From contig JAPKZO010000009.1 in the NCBI GenBank assembly GCA_026393755.1, forward strand, positions 1 to 64,000: 64,000 nt of DNA. Reading direction: 5' to 3'. Both the position numbers and the translations under genes were made by a program. The stretch comes from Acidobacteriota bacterium (GTDB lineage Bacteria; Acidobacteriota; Vicinamibacteria; Vicinamibacterales; JAKQTR01). Shown in pieces: positions 38,593 to 59,899 of the stretch. Numbering within the stretch: the stretch's first letter is position 1; each line of letters starts with the position of its first letter. The notes under the pieces are model-generated. The model was not told where the DNA came from. It was given only the letters and a program-made list of their open reading frames with translations, and searched no databases.

Positions 38593-38607
38593 ATTGGTCC
38601 GTCCAAA
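38593..38607. promoter_or_regulatory. distal FadR/GntR-type operator candidate, copy A
   Basis: ATTGGTCCGTCCAAA, with TTGG and CCAA arms 5 bases apart, about 120 bases upstream of the -35 box of the SDR operon. The same sequence stands at 44789 and a full-length version at 46635. Confidence 0.5.
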
Positions 38608-38727
38608 CGGTCGGACGGCCAACGAACGCCAGCCGAGGAGTGGAACGTGATCGACGGGATAATCAATCATTGAAAGTACCATTTTTGCTTGTACTTATGG
38701 CCATATAGACCCGATGTCGATCCCGGC

Positions 38728-38756
38728 TTGACAGGCTGGTGCCATCCGCGTAACGT
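38728..38756 (+). promoter_or_regulatory. sigma-70 promoter of the SDR-LarA-gnd operon
   Basis: TTGACA (38728-38733), a 17-base spacer and TAACGT (38751-38756). The paralogous leader at 44924-44952 keeps the same hexamers (TTGACA, TAAGGT) and the same spacing while the spacer sequence has diverged, which is good evidence of function. The predicted 5' leader is about 130 bases. Confidence 0.7.
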
Positions 38757-38780
38757 TTCCAGTGGACACTCGTGGCCGTC

Positions 38781-38806
38781 GCAGGCTACTGCCTGCGGTC
38801 AGACCG
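38781..38806. promoter_or_regulatory. hairpin and FadR-type operator CGGTC-A-GACCG downstream of the promoter
   Basis: GCAGGC-TACT-GCCTGC (38781-38796) abuts the palindrome CGGTCAGACCG (38796-38806). The GGTCAGACC core begins 41 bases after the -10 box. The twin leader has GGTCAGACC 40 bases after its own -10. The core fits the GntR/FadR-subfamily half-site rule TGGTC-N-GACCA and would act as a roadblock operator. Confidence 0.6.
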
Positions 38807-38893
38807 GATAGAGATGGATGCCCCGGCGCAACCGCGGCCGAATTGGCCGCGTCAGCCGCCTCGAAGTCGGTATCGTGCTGATTGAGAATCGCT

Positions 38894-39727
38894 ATGAACC
38901 TGGAAGAACTGGCTCGGCTGTACAACTTCAGTGGTCAGACCATCGCGGTCACGGGCGGCACCGGCATCCTCGGCGGCGAGATCGCCTGCGCACTGGTCGG
39001 ATGCGGTGCCAATGTTGCGATTCTCGACCGCAATACCGATCCGGCCGCCGGGTTGCTGGATCGGGTGGGCGCGGCGGCAAGCCGCACGGTGGTGATCGGC
39101 ACCGACGTGCTGGACGCGGCGAGCCTGCAACGCGCCGCGGATCAGATCCTGGAGAAATTCGGCAGAATCGATGCCCTGGTCAACGGCGCCGGTGGCAATC
39201 ATCCGAACTCCACAACCGGTCCCAAGTCCTCGTTCTTCCATCTGCCCCCTGATGCGCTGCGATGGGTCTTTGATCTCAACCTCCTCGGCACGATCCTCCC
39301 CTGCCAGGTGTTCGGCCAGATGATGGCCCGGCAGAAGAGCGGGACCATCCTCAATATCTCGTCGATGAACGCGTTCCGTCCGCTCACCCGCATCCCCGCG
39401 TACTCGGCGGCGAAGGCCGGCGTGAGCAACTTCACGCAGTGGCTGGCGGTGCATCTGGCGCAGGAGTACTCGCCCCTGATCCGCGTTAATGCCATCGCGC
39501 CTGGCTTCTTCCTCACGCAACAGAATCGCTTCTTGCTGACCGACGAGAAGACGGGCGACCTCACGCCGCGAGGACAGTCCATTATCAGTCACACGCCGAT
39601 GGGTCGGTTCGGCGAGCCTGTAGACTTGTTCGGCACGGTGCTGTGGCTCTTGTCGCCAGCCTCGGCCTTCGTGACGGGGATCGTCGTCCCAGTCGACGGG
39701 GGCTTCTCCGCGTTCAGCGGCGTGTAG
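38894..39727 (+). CDS. SDR oxidoreductase, mannonate-oxidoreductase (fructuronate reductase) type
   Basis: A 277-residue short-chain dehydrogenase. The nucleotide-binding motif TGGTGILG (Thr20-Gly27) is followed by NGAGGN, Ser in NISSMNA and the Tyr170-x3-Lys174 catalytic pair (AYSAAKAG). A long insert around NHPNSTTGPKSSFFHLPPD and the C-terminal DEKTGDLTPRGQSIISHTPM are features I associate with Bacillus-type UxuB, which interconverts D-fructuronate and D-mannonate. The start is ATG 38894. It is the first gene of the operon with the LarA-like epimerase (50-base gap) and 6-phosphogluconate dehydrogenase. Other sugar-acid SDR activities remain possible. Confidence 0.82.
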   Translation: MNLEELARLYNFSGQTIAVTGGTGILGGEIACALVGCGANVAILDRNTDPAAGLLDRVGAAASRTVVIGTDVLDAASLQRAADQILEKFGRIDALVNGAGGNHPNSTTGPKSSFFHLPPDALRWVFDLNLLGTILPCQVFGQMMARQKSGTILNISSMNAFRPLTRIPAYSAAKAGVSNFTQWLAVHLAQEYSPLIRVNAIAPGFFLTQQNRFLLTDEKTGDLTPRGQSIISHTPMGRFGEPVDLFGTVLWLLSPASAFVTGIVVPVDGGFSAFSGV

Positions 39728-39777
39728 GACATACGGGCAAGTGGGATAGTCGCAGCACCGCTGACGGAGCTTCTACG

Positions 39778-41067
39778 GTGGAAACGGTCACACACTCGCC
39801 AGTTGGCTCCGTGCACGGGGTGATCGGTCGCGGAGCCGGCGCGGCGCACCTGGCGCCAGACGATGTCCGAGCCGTCGTGCGGGAGGCGCTGGCGTCTCTG
39901 CCGCTTGATGGCAAGCGACTGCTGGTGATCATCCCCGACGGCACGCGAACGATGCCGATGCCGCTGATCTGGGACACGCTCGAGACTGAAGCGTGGCCGC
40001 GGGTGTCGGCGCTCGATTATCTGGTTGCACTCGGCACGCACCAGCCGATGAACGACCAGCAACTTACCCGCCTCGTGGGCCGGACGGTGGTCGGCGGCCG
40101 CGCGGGCCGGAGCCGGATCTTCAACCACCGCTGGGATGATCCGGCCACGTTCGTCACGCTGGGGACCATTCCGGCATCCGAGATCGGGACGTTGACCGGC
40201 GGTCTGTTCGATCGATCGGTCGTCGTCTCACTGAACAAGCTCATCTTCGACTACGACCAGGTGCTCATCTGCGGTCCGGTATTTCCGCACGAAGTCGTCG
40301 GGTTCTCGGGCGGCAACAAGTACCTGTTTCCGGGCATCGCGGGCCCGGATCTCATCAACTTCACGCATTGGCTGGGCGCCATCATCTGCAGCTACCACGT
40401 GATCGGTGCGGGCTACACGCCGGTGCGCGCCGTCATCGACCGGGCGGCCTCGCTGGTCACTGTTCCGGTGAGTTGCCTCGCATTGGTCGTGACCCACGAT
40501 GGCGTCGACGGGATCTACTTCGGCGCCCCCGAGGACGCGTGGCGCGCGGCGTCGGCGGTTTCGGCGAAGACCCACATCATCTACGTCGATCGGCCGTTTC
40601 GCCGCGTGCTGTCGATCATGCCGGAGATGTACGACGACCTCTGGACGGCGGCCAAGGGCATGTACAAGCTCGAGCCGGCCATCGCCGATGGCGGCGAGGT
40701 GGTAATCTACGCGCCGCACATCACCGAGGTGAGCTACACGCACGGCCGGATCATCGACGAAGTGGGATATCACTGCCGGGATTACTTCCTCGGCCAGTGG
40801 GAGCGATTCAAACAGTACCCGGGCGGCGTACTCGCGCACTCGACACACCTGAAGGGCCTCGGACAGTACGACGCCACGACCGGCGTCGAGACGCCCCGCA
40901 TCCGGGTCACGCTCGCCACCAGCATCCCGGAAGAGCGTTGCCGGCGGATCAATCTTGGCTATCTCGATCCGGCAAGCGTTAAGACAGAGGAGTGGGTCGG
41001 CCGCGAACACGAAGGCGTGCTGGTCGTCCCGCGCGCCGGCGAGATGCTGTACCGGATGAAATCATGA
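39778..41067 (+). CDS. LarA-family nickel-dependent racemase/epimerase
   Basis: A 429-residue enzyme; GTG 39778 follows GGAG by 8 bases, and the length matches lactate racemase LarA (about 424). All key LarA positions are present: Asp54 and Arg57 in PDGTRTMP, His88 in GTHQPM, His171 in PHEVVGFSGG, cofactor-lysine Lys181 in SGGNKYLFPG, and nickel ligand His197 in FTHWLG. The His171-Lys181-His197 spacing (10 and 16) equals that of Lactobacillus LarA. The family includes 2-epimerases of aldonic acids. Placed between a mannonate-type SDR and 6-phosphogluconate dehydrogenase, D-mannonate/D-gluconate 2-epimerisation is the best guess. The cofactor makers LarB, LarC and LarE are not in the window. 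Confidence 0.85.
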   Translation: METVTHSPVGSVHGVIGRGAGAAHLAPDDVRAVVREALASLPLDGKRLLVIIPDGTRTMPMPLIWDTLETEAWPRVSALDYLVALGTHQPMNDQQLTRLVGRTVVGGRAGRSRIFNHRWDDPATFVTLGTIPASEIGTLTGGLFDRSVVVSLNKLIFDYDQVLICGPVFPHEVVGFSGGNKYLFPGIAGPDLINFTHWLGAIICSYHVIGAGYTPVRAVIDRAASLVTVPVSCLALVVTHDGVDGIYFGAPEDAWRAASAVSAKTHIIYVDRPFRRVLSIMPEMYDDLWTAAKGMYKLEPAIADGGEVVIYAPHITEVSYTHGRIIDEVGYHCRDYFLGQWERFKQYPGGVLAHSTHLKGLGQYDATTGVETPRIRVTLATSIPEERCRRINLGYLDPASVKTEEWVGREHEGVLVVPRAGEMLYRMKS

Positions 41068-41089
41068 GGATGCCGAGGGAGCCTGAAGC

Positions 41090-42493
41090 ATGACGTGCGA
41101 TATCGGGGTGGTGGGACTGGGAGTGATGGGCAGCAACCTGGCCCTCAATATGGAACGCCACGGATTCCGGATTGCGGGCTACGACCTTGATGCCGCCAAG
41201 GCCGTGGCGTGGGCCGCCGGACCCGCAGCCGGTAAGCAGGTCGAAGTCGCGGCCACGCCCGATCAGCTGATGGCCATTCTGAAGAAGCCCCGCCGCGTGC
41301 TGATGATGGTGCCGGCCGGGGATCCGGTCGATCACGCGATCGCCCATCTCAAAGGCCATCTCGAGACGGGTGACATCCTGATCGACGGCGGCAACTCCCT
41401 GTTCTCCGACACCGAGCGCCGCAACAAGGCACTCGCCGCCGAGGGCTTCCACTATGTCGGCACCGGCGTGTCGGGCGGCGAACAGGGTGCGCTCTGGGGT
41501 CCGAGCATCATGCCGGGTGGTCAGCGGGAGGCCTGGGAGGCGCTCGCCCCGATCTTCCGTGCGATCGCCGCCAAGGCTGACGATGGGGCGCCGTGCGTTG
41601 AGTACATGGGACCCGGGGGCGCCGGCCATTATGTCAAGATGGTGCACAACGGAATCGAGTACGGCGACATGCAACTGATCGCCGAAACCTACGACATTCT
41701 GTCGCGCGGCCTTGGCCTGTCGGCGCCCGAACTGGCCGACGTGTTCGAGGAGTGGAACACGGGCGAACTCAAGTCCTATCTGATTGAGATCACGGCCGAG
41801 GTGCTCAGAAGGATCGACCCCGACACGGGCCGGCCGCTCGTGGACGTGATCCTCGACGAGGCGGCGCAGAAGGGCACGGGCAAGTGGATGAGCCAGAACG
41901 CGCTTGATGTGGGCGCGCCCATCCCGACGGTCAATGCGGCGGTCGAGGGACGGATCATCTCAGCGTTGAAGCCGCAGCGAGTGGCGGCCAGCCGGTTCCT
42001 GCACGGCCCCGAACCGCGGCACGTCGGCAACCGGCAGTTCCTGATCGACGCCACGCGCGATGCGCTCTACGCGAGCAAGATCACGTCATACGCGCAAGGC
42101 CTGGGATTGCTGCGCATGGCGTCAGACGAGTATGGTTACGACCTGCAGCCGGGCGACATCAGCAAGATCTGGCGAGCCGGCTGCATCATCCGCGCGGGCC
42201 TGCTCGGCGACATCATGGCGGCGTTCAGGCTCACGCCGTCGCTCGTCAATCTGCTGATGGACGAGGCGTTCCGCGACGCGATCGAGCGGCGACAGCACTC
42301 GTGGCGCTTCGTCATCCAGACCAGCGTCGGTCTGGGGATTCCCGTGCTGGCGATGAGCGCGTCGCTCGGCTACTTCGACGCGTACCGCAGCGAGAGGCTG
42401 CCTGCCAACCTTACGCAGGGGCAGAGAGACTACTTCGGCGCCCACACGTATCGTCGCATTGACAAGCCGGGTGTGTTTCACACGGAGTGGTAG
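41090..42493 (+). CDS. gnd: 6-phosphogluconate dehydrogenase, decarboxylating
   Basis: A 467-residue enzyme of full family length that oxidises 6-phosphogluconate to ribulose 5-phosphate and CO2 in the cytosol. It has the Rossmann motif VGLGVMGSNLALNME, then IDGGNSLFSDTERR, the family signature VGTGVSGGEQGALWGPSIMPG, the catalytic Lys/His region GHYVKMVHNGIEYGDMQLIA and the C-terminal GAHTYRRIDK. It starts 22 bases after the LarA-like gene on the same strand, in one operon with sugar-acid enzymes. This suggests that gluconate 6-phosphate made from hexuronates enters the pentose phosphate route. Confidence 0.95.
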   Translation: MTCDIGVVGLGVMGSNLALNMERHGFRIAGYDLDAAKAVAWAAGPAAGKQVEVAATPDQLMAILKKPRRVLMMVPAGDPVDHAIAHLKGHLETGDILIDGGNSLFSDTERRNKALAAEGFHYVGTGVSGGEQGALWGPSIMPGGQREAWEALAPIFRAIAAKADDGAPCVEYMGPGGAGHYVKMVHNGIEYGDMQLIAETYDILSRGLGLSAPELADVFEEWNTGELKSYLIEITAEVLRRIDPDTGRPLVDVILDEAAQKGTGKWMSQNALDVGAPIPTVNAAVEGRIISALKPQRVAASRFLHGPEPRHVGNRQFLIDATRDALYASKITSYAQGLGLLRMASDEYGYDLQPGDISKIWRAGCIIRAGLLGDIMAAFRLTPSLVNLLMDEAFRDAIERRQHSWRFVIQTSVGLGIPVLAMSASLGYFDAYRSERLPANLTQGQRDYFGAHTYRRIDKPGVFHTEW

Positions 42494-42768
42494 GCCATGT
42501 CTGCGGAGCGGCGAGGCTCATCCGGAACGCGCCCGGGAAGACGATCTCAGCACGATTGCGTGAGCTTGTTGCCCCACGGGCATAGAATGTCGGCCGCGGA
42601 TGAAGCGAGGGCGGCAAGGAAGCCGCCCGGGCTGCCGGTGTCGGACTGGACGTCGGGGATGGCACCGTCGGCCTGGCTGGTAAGGGCACGATGTGCCTGC
42701 CTCTGCGCCAGTGGGTGTTCGTGGCGCGAACTCGTCGCGGTATCCTCAAGATGCCGAAAGGAGTTTCC

Positions 42769-44607
42769 ATGCTGACTCGGTATCCGGCCGCCATCCTGGC
42801 CGTGGTCGTTGTATGTGCCGTCACCCTGACCGGCGCGAGACAGGCTGGGCCTGCACGAGGCATGTTGCCCTACCAGGACTCTCGACGACCCGTCGTCGAG
42901 CGCGTCGACGACCTGCTCGCGCTCATGACGATTGACGAGAAGGTCGGGCAGATGACACAGCCAGACCACACCTACCTGAAATCCCCGGACGACGTCGCCC
43001 GCTACTTCGTCGGATCGGTTCTGAGCGGCGGGAACTCGGAAATCCCGGACGTGTCGCCGGCTGGCTGGGCGGAATTCGTCACGGGACTGGAGAAACGGGC
43101 CCTGGCCACGCGGCTCGGCATTCCTATCCTGTACGGCATCGACGCCGTGCACGGACACAACAACGTGCGCAACGCCGTGATCTTTCCCCACAACATCGGG
43201 CTGGGCTGCACGCGGAATCCGAGAATCGTCGAAGATGCCGCCCGCGTCACGGCGCAGGAAGTTGCGGCAACGGGTATGCACTGGACGTTCGGACCCTGCC
43301 TCGCCGTCCCACAGGACGAGCGGTGGGGACGGACCTACGAGGGCTTCGGCGAGACGCCGGAACTCGTGGCCGAGCTGGGAGCCGCCGCCATTCGCGGCTT
43401 CCAGGGCGAGGATCTGTCGCGGCCAGGCGGCGTGCTCGCGTCGGCCAAACACTATGTTGGCGACGGCGGCACGACCAACGGGATCGACCAGGGGGACGCC
43501 CGCGTCGACGAGGCCACGCTCCGCCGGATCCATCTGCCAGGGTACGTTGCGGCGGTCAAGGCGGGCGTCGGTTCCGTCATGGCGTCGTTCAGCAGCTGGA
43601 ACAGCCAGAAGATTCACGGCCACAAGTACCTGCTCACCACCGTTCTCAAGGGTGAGTTGGGCTTCAAGGGGTTCGTCGTATCCGACTGGAAGGCGCTGGA
43701 GCAACTGCCCGGCGACTACGCGCAGCAGATCGAGAAGTCAGTCGACGCCGGCGTCGACATGGTGATGGTCCCGGATATCTACCCCCAGTTCTTCGAGACG
43801 CTGAAGACGCTCGTCGTTTCAGGGCGCATGCCGATCGCGCGCATCGACGACGCCGTGCGGCGCATTCTGACAGTGAAGTTCCGTATGGGGCTATTCGAGC
43901 GGCCGTTTGGCGATCAGTCGCTGCTGGCGCAGGTCGGATCGGCCGCGCACCGTTCGGTGGCACGTCAGGCCGTTCGTGAGTCGTTGGTACTGCTGGCTAA
44001 CCGAAATGCGGTGCTTCCGCTCGCCCAGACCACGCCTGCCATTGTGGTCGCCGGGAAGGCGGCCGACGACATTGGCATGCAGTGCGGGGGATGGACCATC
44101 ACGTGGCAGGGGGCGGCGGGCCCCATCACGAAGGGCACGACGATTCTCCAGGCTATCCGCAACGCCGCGCCGCGCAGCACGGTCAGCTTCTCTCCGACCG
44201 GTGAAGTAGCGAAGGAAGCCAAGGTCGCGGTGGTCGTGATCGGCGAAGCACCTTACGCTGAGATGCAGGGGGATCGCTCCGACCTGTCGCTCGATCGGGC
44301 GGACGTCGCGCTCGTTCGGCGCGTCAAGGCCGCGGGGCTGCCGACCGTCGTGGTGCTGCTGTCGGGCCGGCCGATGATCATCGAGCCGATCCTGGCTGAT
44401 GCCGACGCGATCGTTGCGGCCTGGTTGCCGGGTACCGAGGGGGACGGCGTCGCCGACGTCCTGTTTGGCTCGTACAACCCGACCGGCAAGCTCAGCCACA
44501 CCTGGCCCCGGTCGATGGAGCAGATTCCGATCAACGTCGAACCGAGGGATGAGAAGCCGAGAGCCGTTCCGCTCTTCGAGTACGGCTTCGGCCTTCGGTA
44601 TCGGTAG
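42769..44607 (+). CDS. GH3 beta-glucosidase/exo-glucanase
   Basis: A 612-residue exported glycoside hydrolase. AAAGGAG stands 5 bases before ATG 42769, and a signal peptide (LTRYPAAILAVVVVCAVTLTG) follows. The N-terminal TIM barrel carries IPILYGIDAVHGHNN, ASAKHYVGDGGT and the nucleophile Asp in GFVVSDWKALE. The second domain runs from about residue 400 (VLLANRNAVLPL, WLPGTEGDGVADVLFG). It should release glucose from beta-1,3/1,4-gluco-oligosaccharides in the periplasm. It is followed directly by the remnant of a GH16 gene, which suggests a former beta-1,3-glucan (laminarin) locus. The 275-base gap upstream shows nothing recognisable. Confidence 0.9.
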   Translation: MLTRYPAAILAVVVVCAVTLTGARQAGPARGMLPYQDSRRPVVERVDDLLALMTIDEKVGQMTQPDHTYLKSPDDVARYFVGSVLSGGNSEIPDVSPAGWAEFVTGLEKRALATRLGIPILYGIDAVHGHNNVRNAVIFPHNIGLGCTRNPRIVEDAARVTAQEVAATGMHWTFGPCLAVPQDERWGRTYEGFGETPELVAELGAAAIRGFQGEDLSRPGGVLASAKHYVGDGGTTNGIDQGDARVDEATLRRIHLPGYVAAVKAGVGSVMASFSSWNSQKIHGHKYLLTTVLKGELGFKGFVVSDWKALEQLPGDYAQQIEKSVDAGVDMVMVPDIYPQFFETLKTLVVSGRMPIARIDDAVRRILTVKFRMGLFERPFGDQSLLAQVGSAAHRSVARQAVRESLVLLANRNAVLPLAQTTPAIVVAGKAADDIGMQCGGWTITWQGAAGPITKGTTILQAIRNAAPRSTVSFSPTGEVAKEAKVAVVVIGEAPYAEMQGDRSDLSLDRADVALVRRVKAAGLPTVVVLLSGRPMIIEPILADADAIVAAWLPGTEGDGVADVLFGSYNPTGKLSHTWPRSMEQIPINVEPRDEKPRAVPLFEYGFGLRYR

Positions 44608-44630
44608 CGGCGTGAACCGGTCGCGACGGA

Positions 44631-44741
44631 TTAATCAACCTCGCGATTGGCGGTTCATGGGGCGGACAGAAGGGCATCGACGACGCGCTGTTTCCGAAGC
44701 GCTTCCTCATCGACTACGTTCGGATCTACCAGCGGCGGTGA
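44631..44741 (+). pseudogene. C-terminal remnant of a GH16 endo-beta-glucanase
   Basis: 36 codons plus stop read LINLAIGGSWGGQKGIDDAL followed by FPKRFLIDYVRIYQRR. This is the conserved C-terminal strand pair of GH16 laminarinases, in which a LAxGGxWGG block is followed by FP..FxVDYVRVYQ. There is no start, and an in-frame stop lies just upstream at 44613-44615, so the rest of the gene has been deleted. It follows the intact GH3 gene by 23 bases. Confidence 0.75.
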
Positions 44742-44787
44742 GGCCGTCGACCAGTCACACGACCGGCCGCCGAACATGAGGTTGACA

Positions 44788-44802
44788 AATTGGTCCGTCC
44801 AC
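44788..44802. promoter_or_regulatory. distal FadR/GntR-type operator candidate, copy B
   Basis: AATTGGTCCGTCCAC, matching the core ATTGGTCCGTCCA of copy A (38593). It directly follows TTGACA (44782-44787), which has no -10 partner at the right distance. Confidence 0.45.
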
Positions 44803-44923
44803 AACGCCAGGCTGTCGGCGGCGATGCTTCAGGTGACCGATCGTGGAGGCGACTGGCACGAACCCAGGCAAAGGCCATACTTGCCTTTACTTAAGGCATG
44901 GCAGCACATGTCACGCTCTCGGC

Positions 44924-44952
44924 TTGACAGCCGGGTCCTCTCCACGTAAGGT
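44924..44952 (+). promoter_or_regulatory. sigma-70 promoter of the PfkB kinase gene
   Basis: TTGACA (44924-44929), a 17-base spacer and TAAGGT (44947-44952). Hexamers and spacing are conserved with the SDR-operon promoter although the spacers differ. The leader to the kinase ATG is about 150 bases. Confidence 0.7.
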
Positions 44953-44991
44953 TGCCGGTGAACATCCGTCGCCACGCCTCGCTTTCACTGT

Positions 44992-45000
44992 GGTCAGACC
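44992..45000. promoter_or_regulatory. FadR-type operator core GGTC-A-GACC, copy B
   Basis: GGTCAGACC within TGTGGTCAGACCGGA, 40 bases after the -10 box, at the same place as in copy A (41 bases). Confidence 0.5.
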
Positions 45001-45111
45001 GGAAGAATACCCGCGCCCCGGGGCTCTCGGCCCGAAACGGCGATGGCAGCCGCCTCGAACGACGACGCGGTGTTGATGGGAACGGCCATGAACCTGGAAC
45101 AGTGGTAGACC

Positions 45112-46194
45112 ATGACCAGCCGACTCACGATCCGGCCTGATGGCGAGTTTGATTTCGTGTCGCTCGGGGCGCTGGTTCATCGTCTCGATCCGGGCATCGT
45201 GCCGTTCCGCAAAGCCACGACGTGCGCCATCCACGTGAGCGGCGGCGAGTTCAACTGCGCGGCCAACCTGGCCGACTGCTTCCGGCTTAAGACCGCCGTC
45301 GTCACGGCCATGGCCGACTACCCCATCGGCGATCTCATCGCCGAACGCGTGCGGGCCATGGGCGTCGTGCCGTTCTACAAGCGCTTCGCGCACAATGGCG
45401 TGAATGGCCCCAACATGGCCACCGTCTACAGCGACCGGGGATTCGGCGTTCGCGCGCCCGTAGTGTTTTACAACCGATCGAACGAGGCGGCGGCGCTGCT
45501 CAAACCGGGCGACTTCGACTGGAACGCCATCTTCGGCGGCGGCGTGCGTTGGTTCCACAGTGGCGGTATCTTTGCGTCGCTGTCGGCGACAACCGGCGAG
45601 TTGATTGTTGAGGCCATGACGGCGGCGAAAGCCGCAGGAGCAGTGACCTCGTTTGACCTCAACTTCCGCGAGAAACTCTGGAACATCTGGGGCGGTCAGG
45701 CGAAGGCGGTGGAGGTCGTCCGGCGCATCGTCGAACACGTGGATGTGCTGGTGGGCAACGAAGAGGACCTGCAGAAGGGGCTCGGCATTGCGGGCCCGGA
45801 AGTCGCGGCAACGTCGAAGCTCGACCCGAGTGTGTTCGTTGCGATGATCGAATCGGTCATCAGGAAACACCCCAACGTGAAGGCCGTCGCTACCACGCTC
45901 AGAGAAGTCCACTCGACCAATCGACACGGCTGGGGCGCGGTGGCGTGGTTAGACGGCAGGACCTATGTGTCGCCCACGTGCGACCTGGAGATCATCGATC
46001 GCGTCGGTGGCGGCGACGGCTTCGCATCCGGGTTCATCTACGGTCTGCTGGCCGGCGAATCGCCCGACGCGGCAGTCAGGCTCGGCTGGGCGCATGGCGC
46101 GCTGCTCACGACATTCCCAGGCGACACAACGATGGCCACGGTGGAACAGGTGCGCGCGTTCGCGAAGGGCGGGTCGGCCCGGATTCAGCGGTAG
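45112..46194 (+). CDS. PfkB-family sugar kinase (2-keto-3-deoxygluconate or gluconate kinase type)
   Basis: A 360-residue ribokinase-family enzyme. It has VSGGEFNCAANLADCF (PfkB signature 1 region), SFDLNFREKLWN, VGNEEDL, and the catalytic/anion-hole motif RVGGGDGFASGFIYG, where Asp is the base. Substrates of this branch are KDG, KDGal and related sugar acids. Since 6-phosphogluconate dehydrogenase is in the neighbouring operon and the leaders are shared, it may make gluconate 6-phosphate or KDG 6-phosphate. The two cannot be told apart here. Length is slightly above the usual 310-345. The Shine-Dalgarno is weak (GTGGTAG). Confidence 0.82.
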   Translation: MTSRLTIRPDGEFDFVSLGALVHRLDPGIVPFRKATTCAIHVSGGEFNCAANLADCFRLKTAVVTAMADYPIGDLIAERVRAMGVVPFYKRFAHNGVNGPNMATVYSDRGFGVRAPVVFYNRSNEAAALLKPGDFDWNAIFGGGVRWFHSGGIFASLSATTGELIVEAMTAAKAAGAVTSFDLNFREKLWNIWGGQAKAVEVVRRIVEHVDVLVGNEEDLQKGLGIAGPEVAATSKLDPSVFVAMIESVIRKHPNVKAVATTLREVHSTNRHGWGAVAWLDGRTYVSPTCDLEIIDRVGGGDGFASGFIYGLLAGESPDAAVRLGWAHGALLTTFPGDTTMATVEQVRAFAKGGSARIQR

Positions 46195-46236
46195 CGCGGA
46201 AGCGGTGGCCTGAAATCACGGAGCCTGGAGGATCTC

Positions 46237-46368: not shown

Positions 46369-46593
46369 GCTCAGCGGCTTACCGAAATCCCACAACGTGC
46401 TGAGACTCTAACTGGCCGCAGCGCGCCGAGGAGTGGATGCACGCCGACATCTGGCTCATGAAGTAACCGGAATGAAAGAGCCCATTCAAACATTTCGGTA
46501 TGACCAGACTTGAAGATTCCGTTCCTGAGCCTGCAAATTGCCTACGCCGCGTGAAACGTAATTGCTAAGAGTTTTGGCCGATTTTTCATTTTC

Positions 46594-46622
46594 TTGACTG
46601 ACTCCACGGTGTGTGGTAGTTT
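46594..46622 (+). promoter_or_regulatory. sigma-70 promoter of the TonB receptor gene
   Basis: TTGACT (46594-46599), a 17-base spacer and TAGTTT (46617-46622), about 84 bases before the receptor ATG. The region upstream (46560-46592) is AT-rich, which is unusual here and promoter-like. Confidence 0.5.
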
Positions 46623-46634
46623 CTGCCAGTTCAG

Positions 46635-46651
46635 AATTGGTCAGTCCAATT
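46635..46651. promoter_or_regulatory. FadR/GntR-type operator AATTGG-TCAGT-CCAATT
   Basis: A 17-bp inverted repeat with 6-base arms starting 12 bases after the -10 hexamer, so it covers the expected transcript start. It is the best copy of the ATTGGTCnGTCCA motif also found at 38593 and 44789, and it resembles UxuR/ExuR and PdhR-type boxes (AATTGG...CCAATT). Confidence 0.6.
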
Positions 46652-46705
46652 TGCCACGGCGATGCGTGCTTGAGTCGGCCGAATGGTTTGAGCGTGGAGG
46701 TCATT

Positions 46706-49700
46706 ATGAGAAGGCGGCTGGGGATGGTAACGAGCCTGATCGCTGTGGCTCTGTTGGCGGTCGCGCCCGCAGTGCACGCGCAGGCGACAACGGGCCGGAT
46801 CTCCGGAATTGTCAGAGACTCTTCCGGTGGCGTCCTGCCAGGCGTCTCGGTCACCGTGACCGAGACCAAGACTGGGTTCACGCGCACCGAGGGCACCGAT
46901 GCGCAAGGCGCCTTCATCTTCGTCTCGTTGCCCCTGGGCAACTACACCGTTGGAGCCGAACTGCAGGGCTTCAAGAAGGCGTCGAAGTCGGGGTTCGTGC
47001 TCAGTGCTGACGGGCGCTTGACGGCGGACTTCAATCTCGAAGTGGGACAGTTCAGCGAAACGGTGCAGGTCACGGTTGGTGCTGAAACGGTCAACACCGT
47101 ATCGGGAGAGGTCGCGCGCAATGTTGACCGGGCGCAGGTGCAGGATCTCGCGCTCAACGGCCGCAACTATCTGCAGTTGGCCAGTTTGATCCCGGGCGCG
47201 CCGGTGATGCAGGGCAACATGAACGCGCTCGACATCATGACCGGACTTGGCATCAACATGTCCATCAACGGGAGCCGGGGCAACGCCAACTCGCTGACCG
47301 TGGACGGCGGATTCAACATGGACTCTGGCAGCAATAACAGCCAGATCAGCAACGTCGGCGTCGACTTCATCGAAGAGGTCAGCATCAAGACGGCGAGCTT
47401 CTCGGCGGAGTACGGACGCAACTCCGGCGCGGCGATCAACGTGGTCACGCGGAGCGGATCCAACACGTTCAAGGGATCGGTCTACGAGTATCTCCGCCGC
47501 GACAAGTTCGACGCCAACGACTGGTTTGCGAACCTGAAGCACGTGGCGAAGCCATCGCTCAAGTACGACAACTACGGCTTCAGTCTTGGCGGCCCCGTCT
47601 TCAAGGACAAACTCTTCTTCTTCGGCGGCGTTGAGTGGAAGAAGATCGATCGCTTTACGGCGCCGACGTTCCGGACCATACCGAACAGTGCCATGCGAAA
47701 CGGCGACTTCAGCTCTCTGGCGACGTCTCTCAAGGACCCGTCCACCGGGCTCGCGTTCCAAGGCAACATCATTCCACCGAACATGATCACGGCCGACGGC
47801 AAGGCGATTGCGAGCGTCTACGCGGCCATGGCGCTGAAAGCCTCGTCGTACACGGACACGCCGACGACCAACAACGCGCTGTTTATGGACCCGAATCCGT
47901 TCCGTTTCCGACAGGAGATGGCGCGGTTGGACTTCCAGCCGAGTGGGTCGCACCGGTTGACCGGTCGTCTGGTGCTCGACCACTACGATCTGATTGATCC
48001 GGGGGGGACCTTCATCACGTCCCAGCTGCCAACGGTGCCGACCGAGCGCATGCGCCCAGGCCGGAACGTCCAGGTCAATCACTACTGGACGATTGGTGGA
48101 AACCTGGTCAATGAAGCGAAATTCAATTACTCGGCCAACGGCCAGATCATTCCTCCGGTGGGCGATACGTGGAAGCGCGACACCTACGGCTTCCAGTTCG
48201 CGCAGGTGTACACGGGTGGCGGACGGTACGAGAACAGCATTCCGGACGTGAACGTGACGAACTTCGCCTCGTTCCGAGGTGCGGCGCAGTCGCTCATCTC
48301 GCCGACGTGGGACTACTCGTTCAGCGACAAACTGACGTGGATCAAGGGCGCGCACACCGTCCAGGGCGGCGTCATGGTGGTCCGTAATGGCAAGGATCAG
48401 AACGGCCGCTCCGGTTACGCGGGCGTCCTGACGTTCCAGACGAACAGCAACACGATCACCAGCGGCAACGCCTTCGCCGATGTGCTGTTGGGGAACTTCT
48501 ACAACTACAACGAGGCTCAACTCGACCCGATGGGATACTTCCGGTTCTGGCAGCGCGAGGCGTTCGTGTCCGACGCGTGGCGCGTGAACAAGCAACTGAG
48601 CGTCGAATTTGGTGTTCGCTACGCGTGGCAGATGCCGACCTCCACGCTCGGGAACAACACGACCAGCTTCGACCCGGCCTTGTACAGCGCCGCTCAGGCG
48701 GTGACGATGAACACCAATGGGACCATCGTCGCGGGCACCGGCAATCGGTACAACGGCCTGACCAGGCCCGGCGCCGTGCCGAGCGATCAGGTTGCCAACG
48801 TGCCGAATGCCAACAGCCCGGCTGTGGCGACGGTTCCAAACGCGAAGTATCCAGGCTATTACAACACCCAGAATCTGTTCGCGCCGCGCTTCAGCTTTGC
48901 GTACACGCCGTTTGGCGATAAGCGCACCGTGGTCCGCGGCGGCGCGGGCCTCTTCTACGACCGGCCGGAAGGCAATCTGTACTTTGCGCTGGTCAACAAC
49001 CCGCCGTTTTCCTTGAGTTCCTCGTACCTGATGGGTAACCTGTCGAACATCCAGGCCGGTACAGTGCCGCCCATTACACCGTGGGCCAGCATGAACGCGC
49101 TCGATCCGAACATGAAGATCCCGCGCGTCTGGAACTACAACATCGGCGTGCAGCGCGACCTGGGGTTGTGGGGCTTGTTCGCCGAGGTGACATACGTGGG
49201 CGCCAAGGGCCAGCAGCAGATTCGGCAGCCCGACATCAACTATCCGACCTTCACCGACATTGCGGCCAATGCGGTCGGGGCAAAGTACAGCATCGACTAC
49301 CTGCGGCCCTATAAGGGCTACACGTCGATCCTGATGCGCTTGTCGGATGCGAGCTCGACGTACAACTCGCTGCAGGTGTTCCTCAGCAAGCGCCGAGGTG
49401 ATCTGAACTTCTCGTTGAACTATACGCTGTCGAAGGCGATGGACAACGGGAGCGGCAACGGGGACAACCCTGATTCCGGCGTCGCCCCGCTCGCCTACAA
49501 CTACGGGCCGAGCGACAACGATCGCCGGCACGTATTTGTCGGCACGTGGACATACCGGGTGCCGTTCTTCCGCAACGAGAGGAACCTCCTGGGCTATACG
49601 CTTGGCGGGTGGGAGATCTCCGGGATCGCTCGGTACCAGTCTGGCGGGCCGATCACCATCACCGGGACGCAGGTGATTGGCCGCCGGGCCGACTACCTCG

Positions 49701-50041
49701 GAACCGACCCGTACCTGGCGGGTGCGCCAGTGATTTCAGCTGCGGGCGTCGTGTCGTACATCGATCCGGTCGCGTTCGCGGTTGCCCCGGCTGATCGGCT
49801 GGGCAACTCGGCGCGAGGCCAGGTGCGGGGACCGTCGTACTACAACTGGGACATCTCTCTGCGTAAGCAGATCCCGCTCAAGGGAACGGTCAAGGCCCAG
49901 TTCCAGGCGGACTTCTTCAACGCGTTCAACATGGTTCAGTTCCAGAACCCGGCGACCAACCTGTCGGGGTCGGGATTCGGGTTGATCACCGCGGTGCAGC
50001 CGCCTCGCAATATTCAGCTCGGGTTCCGGGTGACGTTCTAG
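46706..50041 (+). CDS. TonB-dependent receptor with carboxypeptidase-regulatory-like domain
   Basis: An 1111-residue outer-membrane receptor. GGAGG stands 5 bases before ATG 46706, and a signal peptide (VTSLIAVALLAVAPAVHAQ) follows. Residues about 25-110 are a carboxypeptidase-regulatory-like domain (GRISGIVRDSSGGVLPGVSV). A plug follows (LNGRNYLQLASLIPGAP, SINGSRGNANSLTVDGG, ISIKTASFSAEYGRNSGAAI-like) and then a barrel ending IQLGFRVTF. An operator of the uronate-type regulon covers its promoter, so it is the likely outer-membrane gate for polyuronide or oligouronide uptake. It belongs to the Oar-like group and not to SusC, and no SusD partner is present. Confidence 0.87.
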   Translation: MRRRLGMVTSLIAVALLAVAPAVHAQATTGRISGIVRDSSGGVLPGVSVTVTETKTGFTRTEGTDAQGAFIFVSLPLGNYTVGAELQGFKKASKSGFVLSADGRLTADFNLEVGQFSETVQVTVGAETVNTVSGEVARNVDRAQVQDLALNGRNYLQLASLIPGAPVMQGNMNALDIMTGLGINMSINGSRGNANSLTVDGGFNMDSGSNNSQISNVGVDFIEEVSIKTASFSAEYGRNSGAAINVVTRSGSNTFKGSVYEYLRRDKFDANDWFANLKHVAKPSLKYDNYGFSLGGPVFKDKLFFFGGVEWKKIDRFTAPTFRTIPNSAMRNGDFSSLATSLKDPSTGLAFQGNIIPPNMITADGKAIASVYAAMALKASSYTDTPTTNNALFMDPNPFRFRQEMARLDFQPSGSHRLTGRLVLDHYDLIDPGGTFITSQLPTVPTERMRPGRNVQVNHYWTIGGNLVNEAKFNYSANGQIIPPVGDTWKRDTYGFQFAQVYTGGGRYENSIPDVNVTNFASFRGAAQSLISPTWDYSFSDKLTWIKGAHTVQGGVMVVRNGKDQNGRSGYAGVLTFQTNSNTITSGNAFADVLLGNFYNYNEAQLDPMGYFRFWQREAFVSDAWRVNKQLSVEFGVRYAWQMPTSTLGNNTTSFDPALYSAAQAVTMNTNGTIVAGTGNRYNGLTRPGAVPSDQVANVPNANSPAVATVPNAKYPGYYNTQNLFAPRFSFAYTPFGDKRTVVRGGAGLFYDRPEGNLYFALVNNPPFSLSSSYLMGNLSNIQAGTVPPITPWASMNALDPNMKIPRVWNYNIGVQRDLGLWGLFAEVTYVGAKGQQQIRQPDINYPTFTDIAANAVGAKYSIDYLRPYKGYTSILMRLSDASSTYNSLQVFLSKRRGDLNFSLNYTLSKAMDNGSGNGDNPDSGVAPLAYNYGPSDNDRRHVFVGTWTYRVPFFRNERNLLGYTLGGWEISGIARYQSGGPITITGTQVIGRRADYLGTDPYLAGAPVISAAGVVSYIDPVAFAVAPADRLGNSARGQVRGPSYYNWDISLRKQIPLKGTVKAQFQADFFNAFNMVQFQNPATNLSGSGFGLITAVQPPRNIQLGFRVTF

Positions 50042-50328
50042 GGACGGGCTCAGAACCTCCGTCAGCGGATGGCTAGTCGGCCGCCAAGACGGGTGTTGAA
50101 ACCGAGTGTCATCTGCGGACCCGTCGCGGGCCGCTGAGACAAGTGGCGCGGGCCAGGCTCCTGCCGGCCGTCTTCGAAATCGAGGAGGCCGACGGGGTTC
50201 TGGCCCGTCACCGTTTCGACAGGGGATCGCCTGGCGTCCGTGCGGCCAGGCGGTGTCTCGAGCCCCCCCAGTCCATAATGACCCGATTATCCGGATCCGG
50301 AATTGCTCGGCCTTCATGGAGTCCGTCG

Positions 50329-51690: not shown

Positions 51691-51714
51691 GCCGGTCGAG
51701 GGAACGGAGGGCAC

Positions 51715-53178
51715 ATGTCACATTCATCACGCAGCGAGCGCGAGGCGTCGCGGCGCCGGTTTCTGAAGACGTCCATCGCCGCGTCCGCCGGGTTGTTCCT
51801 GCCGACGTTCATTCCTCGCACGTACTTGTTCGGCGCGCAGACTCCACCGAGCCGCCGGATCAACGTGGCGCAGATTGGCTGCGGTCGGATGGGCACCGAG
51901 GATTTGCGCGGCACGATGGCGCACGACCTCTGCCGCATGGTGGCGGTATGCGATCTCGACGCGAAGCGCCTGGAACAGGCGCGGGCCGAGGTCGAGCAGT
52001 TCTACAAGGCCAAGGGCGAGAGTCGCGTGGACGTCAAGGCGTACCGCGACTACCACGAGGTGCTGGCCAGGCCAGACATCGACGCCGTGATCGTGACCCC
52101 GCCGGATCACTGGCACGCGATTGTCGCGGTTGAGGCGGTGCTGGCCGGCAAGGACCTGCACGTGCAGAAGCCCCTGACGTACGACATTGCCGAGGCCATC
52201 GCGCTGCGCACGGCCGTTCGCGCCAAGGGACGCATTCTTCAGACGGGCAGCCAGCAGCGGTCGTCACAACCATGGAACACGTTCCGCATTGCCACCGAAG
52301 CGGTGCGCAACGGAAGGATCGGGCAGATCAAGACCATCAGGGTGGGGATTGGCCAGGACAAGCCGAAAGGACAGGCGCCAATAGCCCAGCCCGTGCCCGC
52401 GACGTTCGACTACGAGACGTGGCTCGGTCCGGCGCCGCAGCAGCCGTACATGGAAGATCGCGTGCACCCCCAGGAGGGGTATGGCCGGCCCGGTTGGATT
52501 ACGACCGAGGACTTCGGTCTCGGGATGATCACCAACTGGGGCGCGCACCACATGGACATCGCCCATTGGGGCATGGGGATGGAATTGAGCGGGCCGACGA
52601 GCATCGAGGCTCGCGCCGACTTCATGACCGGAGATGTGTGGACGGTGCACGAGACATATCACGTCGAAATGACGTACCCCAACGGCGTGCTGCTCATCAT
52701 GGACAACTCGTTTCCGAACGGCGTCCGATTCGAGGGCACTGAAGGCTGGGTGTTCTGTGCGCGCGGATCCGCGCAGGTGACGAGCAGCGATCCTGGGGCC
52801 ACTGGCCAGAAGGACGGGCGGAAGTCGCTCGATGCCAGCGACCTTCGACTGCTGAGCGCGCCGTACGGACCCAACGCCAAGCGCTGGATGGCCAGCGAGA
52901 ATTCCTATCGAAACTGGCTCGAAGCAATAGCCAAGCGCCAGGACCCGATCGCACCTGTTGATCAGGCGGCCCGCAGTCTCGAGGCGTGTGCCGCCGCCTG
53001 GATCGGGATGAAGCTCAGGCGAAAGCTCACGTGGGATCCGAAACTCGAGCAGTTCGTCGGCGATGCGGAGGCCAACGCGATGTGCGCGCGCAAGCCCCGC
53101 GCTGCCAAGTACGACCTCGCACAGATCATGAAGTCGGCGGGCCTCGTCAAGAGCCCAGCGCCGTCGCCGGTGAAGTGA
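51715..53178 (+). CDS. Tat-exported Gfo/Idh/MocA-family oxidoreductase
   Basis: A 487-residue NAD(P)-dependent sugar oxidoreductase. A twin-arginine signal (ASRRRFLKTSIAASAGLFLP) is followed by the Rossmann motif VAQIGCGRMGTE, DHWHAIVAVEAVLAGKD and VQKPLTYD, where Gln replaces the usual Glu of the EKP motif. That replacement is common in the Tat-exported branch I know. It probably acts as a periplasmic glycoside 3-dehydrogenase or reductase with tightly bound cofactor and works with the DUF1080 protein encoded just upstream. The C-terminal domain has NWGAHHMDIAHWGMG. Confidence 0.9.
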   Translation: MSHSSRSEREASRRRFLKTSIAASAGLFLPTFIPRTYLFGAQTPPSRRINVAQIGCGRMGTEDLRGTMAHDLCRMVAVCDLDAKRLEQARAEVEQFYKAKGESRVDVKAYRDYHEVLARPDIDAVIVTPPDHWHAIVAVEAVLAGKDLHVQKPLTYDIAEAIALRTAVRAKGRILQTGSQQRSSQPWNTFRIATEAVRNGRIGQIKTIRVGIGQDKPKGQAPIAQPVPATFDYETWLGPAPQQPYMEDRVHPQEGYGRPGWITTEDFGLGMITNWGAHHMDIAHWGMGMELSGPTSIEARADFMTGDVWTVHETYHVEMTYPNGVLLIMDNSFPNGVRFEGTEGWVFCARGSAQVTSSDPGATGQKDGRKSLDASDLRLLSAPYGPNAKRWMASENSYRNWLEAIAKRQDPIAPVDQAARSLEACAAAWIGMKLRRKLTWDPKLEQFVGDAEANAMCARKPRAAKYDLAQIMKSAGLVKSPAPSPVK

Positions 53179-53236
53179 CGAGAAGCATGACGGTGACCGG
53201 CGCGAGTCGTTGAGGGCCCGCTGCGGAGGTCGGCGT

Positions 53237-53419
53237 ATGTGTGCTCGCGGCGGACGCGTTCTGCTGGCGGCATGTCTGATGGTCTCGGCGCCTGGAAGCC
53301 GAGCGGCGCTCGGCCAACAGACGGCGAATGCCGAAGCGCGGTCCGCGCTGATGCGTTCGGCCGAGGAAGCGATGCGTCTCGGCCCGTTCAGCGTCATGCA
53401 GAAGACGCGGGTGCCCCCG
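53237..53419 (+). pseudogene. N-terminal remnant of an alginate-lyase-family gene
   Basis: GGAGG stands 7 bases before ATG 53237, followed by 61 codons: a signal peptide (GRVLLAACLMVSAPGSRAAL), then AEEAMRLGPFSVMQKTRVPP. This is the start of alginate-lyase-fold (PF05426-type) enzymes, where the text normally continues SGDxHDYxSxxPYWWPDP. Here the pattern is lost after Pro, and the frame runs on into the antisense of the GH2 gene. It corresponds to residues about 55-80 of the intact lyase at 59900-61171. The catalytic part has been deleted. Confidence 0.65.
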
Positions 53420-53460
53420 AGGCGCCGGCCCTGGCCCTTCACCACCCATCGCGGCCGGAG

Positions 53461-56571: not shown

Positions 56572-56615
56572 CGACTCCTCCACGACGTCCTGAGTCAATC
56601 AACTCGTTGAGGCAT

Positions 56616-57758
56616 TCATGAACCCGAGGACTTCGCCATCTTGTAGACCTCGCTGCCAGCCGCGAGCAGCGCGCCAACGCCGTACACTTCCGTCGTGTCC
56701 ACCGTCGTGGCTCCAGGCTTATCTCCGATGCGCTGGACCCAGCCAAGCATGCCATCGGGACGAACAGCCTTGACCATCGCGGCCCATCCACGTTGGACGT
56801 TGGACTCGTAGCGGGTTCTGTCCAACAGGCCGTTGTTGATCCCCCACGCGAGGCCGAACGTGAAGAAGCCGGTTCCGCTCGTCTCAGGATTCGGCAGGCT
56901 TGTCGCATCCAGCAGGCTCGCCCGCCAGAACCCGTCCTCACCCTGCACGGATGCGATCTTGTCCGCCATCTCCTTGAAGAGCGCCACGTATCTGGGGCGA
57001 TCCGGATAGTCGGCCGGCATATCCTGCAGCATCCGAGCCAGACCCGCGAAGACCCAGCCGTTGCCGCGGCTCCAGAACACCTTCTTGCCATTCGGTTCGC
57101 GCTGATCAAGATACCGGCTGTCGCGGTAATAGAGCTTCTCGGTCCTGTCGTACAGGTAGTCGGTGGTCTTCCACCACAGGCGGTTGGCCAGATCGAGGTA
57201 CCTGCGATCGCCAGTCGCCGCGCTCACGGCCGCGAGCGCCGGCGGCCCCATAAAGAGGGCGTCACACCAGGCCCACTCGCGGGTCTCGATGGCGTTTCCC
57301 CACAGGAGCGGCTCATCGTACTTCCGCGTCAGCAGGAAGTTGAACAACGCCAGCGCCGGCGCGAGTATCGTCTTGTCGCGGTCTCGCTGGAAGATCTTCG
57401 CGTAGGTGGCGATCACGGCGTAGTCGTCCGCGTGGCCTGGCCGAAGCCCGGGCCGCCACTGATTCCGCTGGCCCATCGCCTTCATCGCCTCGAAGTACTT
57501 CGGATGGTCGGAGACGTCGGCGAACGCCATCACCCCCGTGTAGAAGGCCGCCTGTGTCCAGTCGTACGGCGCATGGTCGGATGGGTGATCGAGCTGCCAG
57601 TCGGCCGCGGCCGTCATCACCTTGAGGATGGCTCGCTGGTCGATGTCGGCGCTGAACGCCGTTGGTGACACTTGCGCACTCTGCGCCAAAGCCGGCGCCG
57701 CCGAATCCATCAGGACAGCAGCCAGGATTCCGCCCACAATAGACACTGATCGGTTCAT
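56616..57758 (-). CDS. GH105/GH88-type unsaturated glycuronyl hydrolase
   Basis: A 380-residue exported enzyme with an (alpha/alpha)6 barrel. After the signal peptide (SIVGGILAAVLMDSAAPALAQ) come NAIETREWAWCDALFMGPP, whose Asp is the catalytic acid of the family, HADDYAVIATYAKIF, and the hallmark VFWSRGNGWVFAGLARML. The enzyme hydrates the 4,5-double bond of unsaturated uronic acids left by polysaccharide lyases and thereby frees them. It is first in an operon with the large GH2 gene and divergent from the beta-glucuronidase-like gene. Two FadR-type operators lie in the shared intergenic region. Confidence 0.87.
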   Translation of the reverse strand: MNRSVSIVGGILAAVLMDSAAPALAQSAQVSPTAFSADIDQRAILKVMTAAADWQLDHPSDHAPYDWTQAAFYTGVMAFADVSDHPKYFEAMKAMGQRNQWRPGLRPGHADDYAVIATYAKIFQRDRDKTILAPALALFNFLLTRKYDEPLLWGNAIETREWAWCDALFMGPPALAAVSAATGDRRYLDLANRLWWKTTDYLYDRTEKLYYRDSRYLDQREPNGKKVFWSRGNGWVFAGLARMLQDMPADYPDRPRYVALFKEMADKIASVQGEDGFWRASLLDATSLPNPETSGTGFFTFGLAWGINNGLLDRTRYESNVQRGWAAMVKAVRPDGMLGWVQRIGDKPGATTVDTTEVYGVGALLAAGSEVYKMAKSSGS

Positions 57759-57852
57759 GTGAGGACGCCCCCCTACGCCGGTCGATCATCGGCCAGATCG
57801 TCGACCCGTGCCGACCTTTCCGGCGACCGTGCGATACATTATCCCCGGTTTC

Positions 57853-57863
57853 TGGTCTGACCA
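57853..57863. promoter_or_regulatory. FadR-type operator TGGTC-T-GACCA between divergent uronide genes
   Basis: A perfect 11-bp palindrome that matches the TGGTC-N-GACCA rule exactly. On the minus strand it lies about 10 bases upstream of a GATAAT -10 box of the GH105 gene. On the plus strand it covers the -35 region before TAGAAT (57877-57882). Confidence 0.6.
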
Positions 57864-57885
57864 CACGCGCTTGGCGTAGAATCAA

Positions 57886-57898
57886 CCGGTCCGACCGG
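57886..57898. promoter_or_regulatory. FadR-type operator CCGGTC-C-GACCGG at the glucuronidase transcript start
   Basis: A perfect 13-bp palindrome starting 3 bases after the TAGAAT -10 box of the plus-strand gene, so it would overlap the start of transcription. It shares the GGTC-N-GACC core with 57853, 38797 and 44992. Confidence 0.55.
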
Positions 57899-59805: not shown

Positions 59806-59899
59806 CGCCCGCAAGCGCGGCGACACGCGCGTCGGTCAGATGGGTTTCCCGATGCTCAGAACGCGGCCGACAGCATATGCTTCGGCCCGCGGAGGCTGC

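Follow-up and report, generated by a model that had tools for sequence, protein, structure and literature searches.

In the first 64,000 bases (hereafter the window) of the 70,134-base contig JAPKZO010000009.1, part of the 4.43 Mb genome of an Acidobacteriota bacterium, short palindromic sites stand upstream of several genes for sugar-acid and uronide use. These are very probably, as far as sequence can tell, the operators of one repressor, a GntR protein of the FadR subfamily with an FCD domain, encoded at 66,979-67,710 of the same contig. A sequence-only reading of the window had listed seven such stretches, ascribed them to a FadR-type regulator and remarked that no such regulator is encoded in the window, which is correct. 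A family search of the genome gave exactly one FCD-domain match, in a GntR gene 3 kb past the edge of the window, adjoining uxaC and an exuT-like gene. That this sole FCD protein has the motif in its own promoter and in the promoters of its orthologues supports the FadR-subfamily interpretation. The predicted operators and the inferred promoter-like elements are, in contig coordinates:

38594..38606, plus strand: distal operator of the dehydrogenase operon, TTGGTCCGTCCAA (matrix rank 5)
38728..38756, plus strand: promoter-like TTGACA-17-TAACGT (inferred), between the dehydrogenase operators
38795..38807, plus strand: proximal operator of the dehydrogenase operon, weak (score 3.3, rank 31)
38931..38943, plus strand: intragenic operator-like site (score 15.5, rank 3)
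44790..44802, plus strand: distal operator of pfkB, TTGGTCCGTCCAC (rank 4)
44924..44952, plus strand: promoter-like TTGACA-17-TAAGGT (inferred), pfkB leader
44990..45002, plus strand: proximal operator of pfkB (score 10.1, rank 8)
46495..46507, plus strand: distal operator of the receptor gene (score 11.0, rank 7)
46594..46622, plus strand: promoter-like TTGACT-17-TAGTTT (inferred), receptor gene
46637..46649, plus strand: proximal operator of the receptor gene, TTGGTCAGTCCAA (score 21.7, rank 1)
57852..57864, no strand: operator between the divergent GH88/105 and GH2 genes (score 17.0, rank 2; reached in 0/1000 shuffles)
67724-67736: proximal operator of the regulator gene, TTGGTCTGACCGA, 26 bases upstream of its start codon
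67901-67913: distal operator of the regulator gene, GTGGACAGACCAT, 203 bases upstream of its start codon

The regulator, of 243 amino acids, combines an N-terminal GntR winged helix-turn-helix (HTH; PF00392, 65.7 bits, cut-off 27) with a C-terminal FCD effector domain (PF07729, 88.7 bits, cut-off 24.3). An Asp-His-His-His metal site is a feature of the FCD domain, and D146, H150, H194 and H216 are invariant in 30/30 orthologues, our own protein included. The same holds for E35, R36, R46 and R50, placed at DNA contacts by their position in the HTH; we take R35 and R49 to be DNA-contact residues of such proteins too. The contact residues Glu34 and Arg45 of FCD-type GntR proteins are named in PMC7797058. 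The protein matches 24 NCBIfam models and stays below the cut-off of each, among them NanR (117 bits, cut-off 260), LldR (109.5, 311), PdhR (75.6, 330), UxuR (50.7, 442) and ExuR (47.9, 396); by every sequence feature tested it is a FadR-subfamily protein, but no named equivalog. Its gene and those that follow lie as follows, again in contig coordinates:

66979-67710, minus strand: FCD GntR regulator
65625-66938: ExuT-like transporter, downstream of the regulator gene
64192-65622: uxaC, after the ExuT-like gene (UxaC 595 bits, cut-off 387)

Relatives of the regulator were sought within the same order, where 98 of 162 genomes gave a match at E <=0.001, many of them distant, and the best loci were kept. 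The promoter set took in the 260 bases upstream of each of 30 orthologues with 50% identity or more, our own included, 19 of which reach at least 57%; L064, a fragment, and matches below 50% identity were dropped, and one further relative, treated as a duplicate of G045 with equal regulator identity, was left out of the counts. When all 4,096 half-sites were enumerated at six spacings with one mismatch allowed, the palindromes ATTGGT-N3-ACCAAT and TTGGTC-N-GACCAA came out on top, each in 6/19 promoters where 8 shuffles averaged 0, and with two or three mismatches their close variants (AGTGGT-N3, TAGGTA-N, TTGGTA-N) did so. The motif fits the operator TKGT-N3-ACMA of the subfamily, for which PMC4494728 gives the consensus TKGT/ACMA, GT and AC being mostly separated by 3 bases. 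The motif served as seed for a 17-base matrix built from 29 orthologous promoters, that of our own regulator left out; 24 of these promoters supplied its 44 sites.

All seven stretches of the sequence-only reading exist, displaced by at most two bases: a pattern search of the window finds TTGGTCCGTCC at 38594 and 44790, TTGGTCAGTCC at 46637, GGTCAGACC at 38797 and 44992, GGTCTGACC at 57854 and GGTCCGACC at 57888. The independent matrix, run over 63,984 positions, puts 46637 first, 57854 second, 44790 fourth, 38594 fifth and 44992 eighth; rank 3 is the intragenic site at 38931, rank 6 a place inside the dehydrogenase gene (39570) and rank 7 the new site at 46495. Sites beyond the seven are those at 46495 and 38931 and those of the regulator promoter. 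Eight sites in the window score at least 10, against a mean of 2.4 and a largest value of 7 in 100 shuffles, and six of the eight (binomial p 2.8e-6) fall in the 6.9% of the window left free by the gene set, which consists in part of long open reading frames (ORFs) without a family test. The bare patterns likewise exceed chance in the window, modestly to clearly: GGTCNGACC has 6 copies against a shuffle mean of 2.37 (at least 6 in 4/100 shuffles), and TTGGTCNGTCC has 3 against 0.18 (at least 3 in 0/100). A looser form, TTGGTCNGACCAA with up to three mismatches, was uninformative, with 18 copies in the window against 18.8 expected. The statement that the motif always stands upstream of such genes is not exact: two copies of GGTCNGACC went unlisted, one at 24571 inside an ORF of 258 amino acids and one within the dehydrogenase gene at 38933. 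The matrix site at 38931 in that gene belongs to our own genome only, being absent from 7/7 relatives.

For conservation, contig stretches of seven relatives (G001, G002, G003, G045, G047, G048 and G059) were compared. Orthologue starts were scanned from 400 bases upstream to 60 bases into the gene for sites scoring at least 10, and tblastn matches were dropped if they had less than 45% identity, E above 1e-40 or a beginning after residue 75. Such sites stand upstream of the dehydrogenase (SDR) orthologues in five of the seven (G001, G002, G045, G047, G048) and of the receptor orthologues in 3/3 relatives, while the starts of other cluster genes, three GH105 orthologues among them, have none (0/47, best 8.2; Fisher p 2.7e-8 against SDR plus receptor). 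The independent count is smaller, because the leaders of G045 and G047 are near-identical. Regulator starts have a site in 5/8 cases, but the matrix is not independent of these promoters. The background windows of the site scan themselves held real sites, which makes the scan's own p values, the Fisher value aside, conservative. In a separate test against 1,000 shuffles, the best SDR site was reached at rates of 0.003-0.016 in the five positive genomes and of 0.082 and 0.589 in the other two, the best receptor sites in 0 to 3 shuffles, and the sites of our own GH105 and regulator genes in none. Of the two relatives that lack SDR sites, G003 has its regulator match, of 56% identity, on a different contig, and in G059 the match has 58% identity. 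Copies of GGTC-C/G-GTCC recur in the dehydrogenase leaders of five relatives, in G001 and G002 with a shift of about 4 columns. The same two genomes align CTGCGGTAAGACCA with the weak proximal dehydrogenase site (scores 12.0 and 11.4), and there, as in our own pfkB leader, the boxes TTGACA and TAAGGT and the proximal site are aligned. The distal receptor site is also found in G048 (12.4) and G045 (9.5), with none of at least 9 in G047.

The sites are arranged in pairs, which flank the inferred promoter in 4/4 of the leaders to which one was assigned in our own genome, at spacings of 142-201 bp, one of the eight sites being weak. Sites centred at 38600 and 38801 (the weak one) enclose TTGACA-17-TAACGT in the dehydrogenase leader, those at 44796 and 44996 enclose TTGACA-17-TAAGGT at pfkB, and those at 46501 and 46643 enclose TTGACT-17-TAGTTT at the receptor gene; in the regulator promoter TTGACA-17-TAATTG lies between two sites 177 bases apart. 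If transcription is taken to begin 7 bases past the -10 box, the positions of the distal sites would be about -163, -163, -128 and -158 and those of the proximal ones +38, +37, +14 and +19 (dehydrogenase, pfkB, receptor, regulator). The distances from -10 box to site given by the sequence-only reading, 41, 40 and 12 bases, come out as 41, 40 and about 13, provided that the boxes are TAACGT, TAAGGT and TAGTTT. Among the 30 regulator promoters, a proximal site scoring at least 11 is present in 17 and a distal one in 16, both together in 11 (143-192 bp apart), and only one of the two positions is filled in another 11; 13 of the 15 viewed have TTGACA at a distance of 74-140 bases before the start codon. 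A short hairpin followed by T-rich bases was seen at 46604-46616, inside the inferred receptor promoter.

One of these control regions is a copy of another. About 320 bases of the pfkB leader align with the dehydrogenase leader at a local score of 77.5, where the best of 200 shuffles gave 23 and our own leader against those of five relatives gave 14-33. The pfkB leader being a copy, the four leader sites count as only two independent ones. In 7/7 relatives pfkB directly follows gnd, and in 6/7 the order SDR-LarA-gnd-pfkB has no other matched gene within it; in G059, uxaC stands between larA and gnd and an unmatched stretch between SDR and larA. In our genome gnd and pfkB are held apart by a GH3 gene and a stretch whose end resembles that of a GH16 protein. 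The simplest history is that this stretch was inserted and that pfkB captured a copy of the control region of the operon. The elements of this region are:

42691..44607, plus strand: GH3 gene between gnd and pfkB
44643-44741: open frame between the GH3 gene and the copied leader, ending ...DDALFPKRFLIDYVRIYQRR*
44784..45099, plus strand: copied dehydrogenase leader, with the first four codons of that gene (ATGAACCTGGAA)
45088-45108: mini-ORF ATGAACCTGGAACAGTGGTAG, beginning with the copied dehydrogenase codons and ending before the pfkB start at 45112

The 32-residue tail at 44643-44741 gives a weak Pfam match to SKN1/KRE6 (E 0.037, below the cut-off); we take it to be the end of a GH16 protein and possibly a remnant of the insertion. 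After the copied leader stands CAGTGGT-AGACCATG, similar to the intragenic site at 38931 but one base shorter. The mini-ORF might affect translation of pfkB.

The genes placed under these sites suggest a route for glucuronate:

38894..39727, plus strand: SDR-type D-mannonate oxidoreductase, UxuB function (NF006132, 359 bits, cut-off 281)
39643..41067, plus strand: LarA-family enzyme (PF09861), likely a D-mannonate/D-gluconate 2-epimerase; its true start is probably further in
41090..42493, plus strand: Gnd, decarboxylating 6-phosphogluconate dehydrogenase (TIGR00873, 643.5 bits, cut-off 426.7)
45112..46194, plus strand: PfkB-family sugar-acid kinase (PF00294)
46706..50041, plus strand: TonB-dependent outer-membrane receptor (PF25183, PF13620)

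LarA-family enzymes invert C2, at which mannonate differs from gluconate, and the enzymes therefore probably form a path in which glucuronate would be converted to fructuronate by UxaC, to mannonate by the SDR enzyme and to gluconate by the LarA protein, followed by phosphorylation to 6-phosphogluconate by the kinase and conversion to ribulose-5-phosphate by Gnd. The genome encodes two proteins of the nickel-insertion family PF01969, which we take to be LarC-type. The best NCBIfam model of the LarA protein is NF052594, a group-18 putative hexonate epimerase (172 bits, below the cut-off of 500), and the closest solved structure is 4NAR (GntE2; 220 bits), with the catalytic and cofactor residues kept; in an alignment read by eye, it has the equivalents of D72, R75, H108, H174, K184, H200 and K298 (residues as in PMC7583248). 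GntE activity was shown in vitro for groups 19-20 of the LarA superfamily, group 18 being untested (PMC7583248). The same route logic has been proposed for Thermotoga (Rodionova 2012, as cited in PMC7583248 and PMC6978723), and published gntE homologues from Acidobacterium and Terriglobus are mentioned in PMC6978723.

A search of this genome found no UxuA. UxuA is absent from 8/8 genomes that have the SDR operon and present in 7/17 without it (two-sided p 0.057, uncorrected for kinship), so that a tie between its loss and the operon is suggestive only. ManD was considered among the two enolase-superfamily proteins above the Pfam cut-off (a third match, below it, was left out) and rejected for both: one is an o-succinylbenzoate synthase (317.5 bits, cut-off 200.65; ManD 58, cut-off 550), and the other lies nearest the models for N-acetyl-Glu racemase and Ala-Glu epimerase, none of whose cut-offs it reaches (ManD 19.6, cut-off 550). 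The kinase also stays below the cut-offs of its best NCBIfam models, an aldolase/sugar kinase fusion (240 bits, cut-off 700) and a 2-keto-3-deoxygluconate (KDG)/2-keto-3-deoxygalactonate kinase (125, cut-off 440), and may be a KDG kinase rather than a gluconate kinase. Since an aldolase for 2-keto-3-deoxy-6-phosphogluconate is present in the genome, a KDG branch is possible, for example for alginate products. An alginate lyase domain gene (59840-61171; PF05426, 290 bits) lies in the cluster and has an orthologue in G048, which has no upstream site. Directly after the receptor gene, 50143-53178 holds a 3-keto-disaccharide hydrolase domain gene and a Gfo/Idh-type dehydrogenase, which resembles a 3-keto-sugar route, and at 61050-63123 a GalU-like nucleotidyltransferase and a GHMP sugar kinase form a possible route of sugar-1-phosphate activation; the two genes are neighbours next to the uronate cluster in this genome as well as in G001, G003, G045 and G048. 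A second regulator paralogue, 54-57% identical, adjoins pfkB in G048, G047 and G045:

L079 3049-3744: regulator paralogue
L084 3068-3760: regulator paralogue
L081 12245-12547: regulator paralogue, partial (contig end)

For the control of these genes, we infer that in the absence of inducer a repressor dimer would occupy pairs of TTGGWCNGWCCAA-like palindromes, some 130-165 bp upstream and 14-38 bp downstream of the inferred start, at the dehydrogenase operon, pfkB, the TonB receptor gene and its own regulator-exuT-uxaC operon, and would block transcription there, perhaps via a loop that holds both sites. A sugar acid made from glucuronate would release the repressor; fructuronate or mannonate are our guesses.

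Several results weigh against such a regulon. A strict sigma-70 scan of four leaders detected no promoter, and the -10 boxes are poor; the site at 38797 ranks 31st (score 3.3) and that at 57888 201st; a 13-base pattern with one mismatch allowed is found 11 + 8 times in the genome against 10 + 10 for its reversed control; GH105 orthologues have an upstream site scoring at least 10 in 0/3 relatives; and at score 11 the proximal site is missing from 13/30 and the distal from 14/30 regulator promoters. For UxaR of Thermotoga, no tested uronate or pathway intermediate altered DNA binding (PMC3750489), which speaks against our simple inducer guess. The genome-wide pattern TTGGTNNNWCCAA was uninformative (58 + 58 against 58 + 67 in the control). 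Of the sequence-only claims, the seven operators are reduced to the five top-ranked ones and the site at 38797, weak but aligned in two relatives, while the one listed at 57886 (here 57888) is unsupported and probably not an operator. The four promoters do share the motif, but two of the leaders are duplicates and the GH105 site is without conservation in the three relatives compared. It would be very improbable, all the same, that a duplicated leader and common short GC-rich palindromes explain the excess with no shared regulon: the two copied leaders, the lack of excess of the loose pattern and genome-wide counts equal to controls would fit this, but the independent matrix and the conservation in orthologous promoters argue otherwise, as does the finding that 4/14 one-mismatch places in the genome lie on this contig, 1.6% of the genome, all four between genes. 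The 10 on other contigs were dropped as regulon members, nine being in ORFs and one, C10:7812, between ORFs.

Binding of the sites by some other protein is, in our view, hardly likely. Besides the FCD protein, two further GntR-HTH proteins of the genome pass the Pfam cut-off, three in all, with one match below it, and an NtrC-like regulator is encoded directly upstream of the dehydrogenase operon (37090-38547), an arrangement also seen in G002. The promoter of the FCD protein, however, bears the motif here and in many orthologues, whereas the loci of the three other GntR-HTH matches (about 3.2 kb each) have no site of at least 10 (0/3; best 4.2, 9.3 and 6.6) and, in the domain search of the genome, no FCD domain, and in the 400 bases that precede the NtrC-like gene the best score is -2.6, short of 10. 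We also give very little credence to leaders that act as RNA, as riboswitch or attenuator, with the palindromes as parts of the RNA structure. Leaders of about 130 bases, one of them duplicated, would suit such elements, but the window has no Rfam match at gathering scores, neither leader has a better fold than its shuffles (z -0.46 and +1.62), and the distal sites lie upstream of the inferred start; the riboswitch was rejected on the Rfam and folding results. Within control by the FCD repressor, loop repression that encloses the promoter is a reasonable proposal, with a chance that we put slightly short of even, since the FCD tetramer of Atu1419 loops palindromes 190 bp apart (PMC7797058) and sites lie on either side of the inferred promoter in all four of our own promoters; against it, the distal sites of E. 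coli LldR did not strengthen repression in a reporter library (PMC7804116), and the pair spacings show no helical phase. The same regulator could instead work without a loop, the downstream site acting as a roadblock and the distal one acting on polymerase entry, serving a second start or being a remnant. The LldR result, the variable spacings (142-201 bp in this genome, 143-192 bp in regulator promoters) and the 11/30 regulator promoters with one position filled all suit this alternative, which has close to an even chance as well, and the flanking arrangement and the Atu1419 loop speak against it.

The circuit of the FCD repressor would thus be a fairly ordinary but well-supported case of glucuronate control, unusual for its paired operators around each promoter and for its copied promoter. 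It is conceivable, though we hold it doubtful, that the system offers more, in this order: loop-forming control of FadR type (140-200 bp), a portable operator-promoter-operator module copied to pfkB after the GH3 split, and a LarA route replacing mannonate dehydratase altogether. A guess from sequence has in any case become a testable regulon with an identified regulator gene. The pfkB leader provides a natural example in which disruption of an operon was followed by copying of its control region, the conserved operator pairs are material for testing loop repression by FadR-type proteins, and the replacement of mannonate dehydratase by a LarA enzyme predicts nickel-dependent growth on glucuronate. 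A limited literature search gave no description of a uronate regulon in the Acidobacteriota.

E. coli LldR, PdhR, UxuR, ExuR and NanR belong to the FadR subfamily like the regulator described here, which scores below all their cut-offs; the LldR operators flank the lldPRD promoter. NanR binds direct repeats (PMC4494728, the excerpt of which does not name the Acidobacteria). Atu1419 of Agrobacterium fabrum is likewise a GntR protein of FCD type, a repressor with two palindromes, there 190 bp apart, for which the loop was seen by electron microscopy; it differs in its motif (ATGTATACAT), in belonging to the VanR branch and in serving an aromatic acid pathway (PMC7797058). The hybrid galacturonate pathway of Lactobacillus suebicus also leads from mannonate to 6-phosphogluconate and ribulose-5-phosphate and not to KDG, but there the kinase acts first, followed by a 6-phosphomannonate 2-epimerase whose gene was not identified in that study (PMC6978723).

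With respect to structure, the regulator weakly matches 3fms (25.3 bits), which we take to be the same protein as TM0439 of Thermotoga maritima. The match to the TM0439 structure 3sxy, named in PMC4494728, is similarly weak (23.5 bits). TM0439 is UxaR, a GntR regulator with multiple palindromic sites at the uronate locus, at which binding was demonstrated by fluorescence polarisation (PMC3750489). Thermotoga has uxuA, which was not found here, its transporters differ, and paired flanking operators are not mentioned in the excerpt of PMC3750489. The UxaR regulon is the functionally nearest described system: as with the predicted sites here, it includes gnd, gntE of the LarA family, a kinase and uronate enzymes (PMC3750489).

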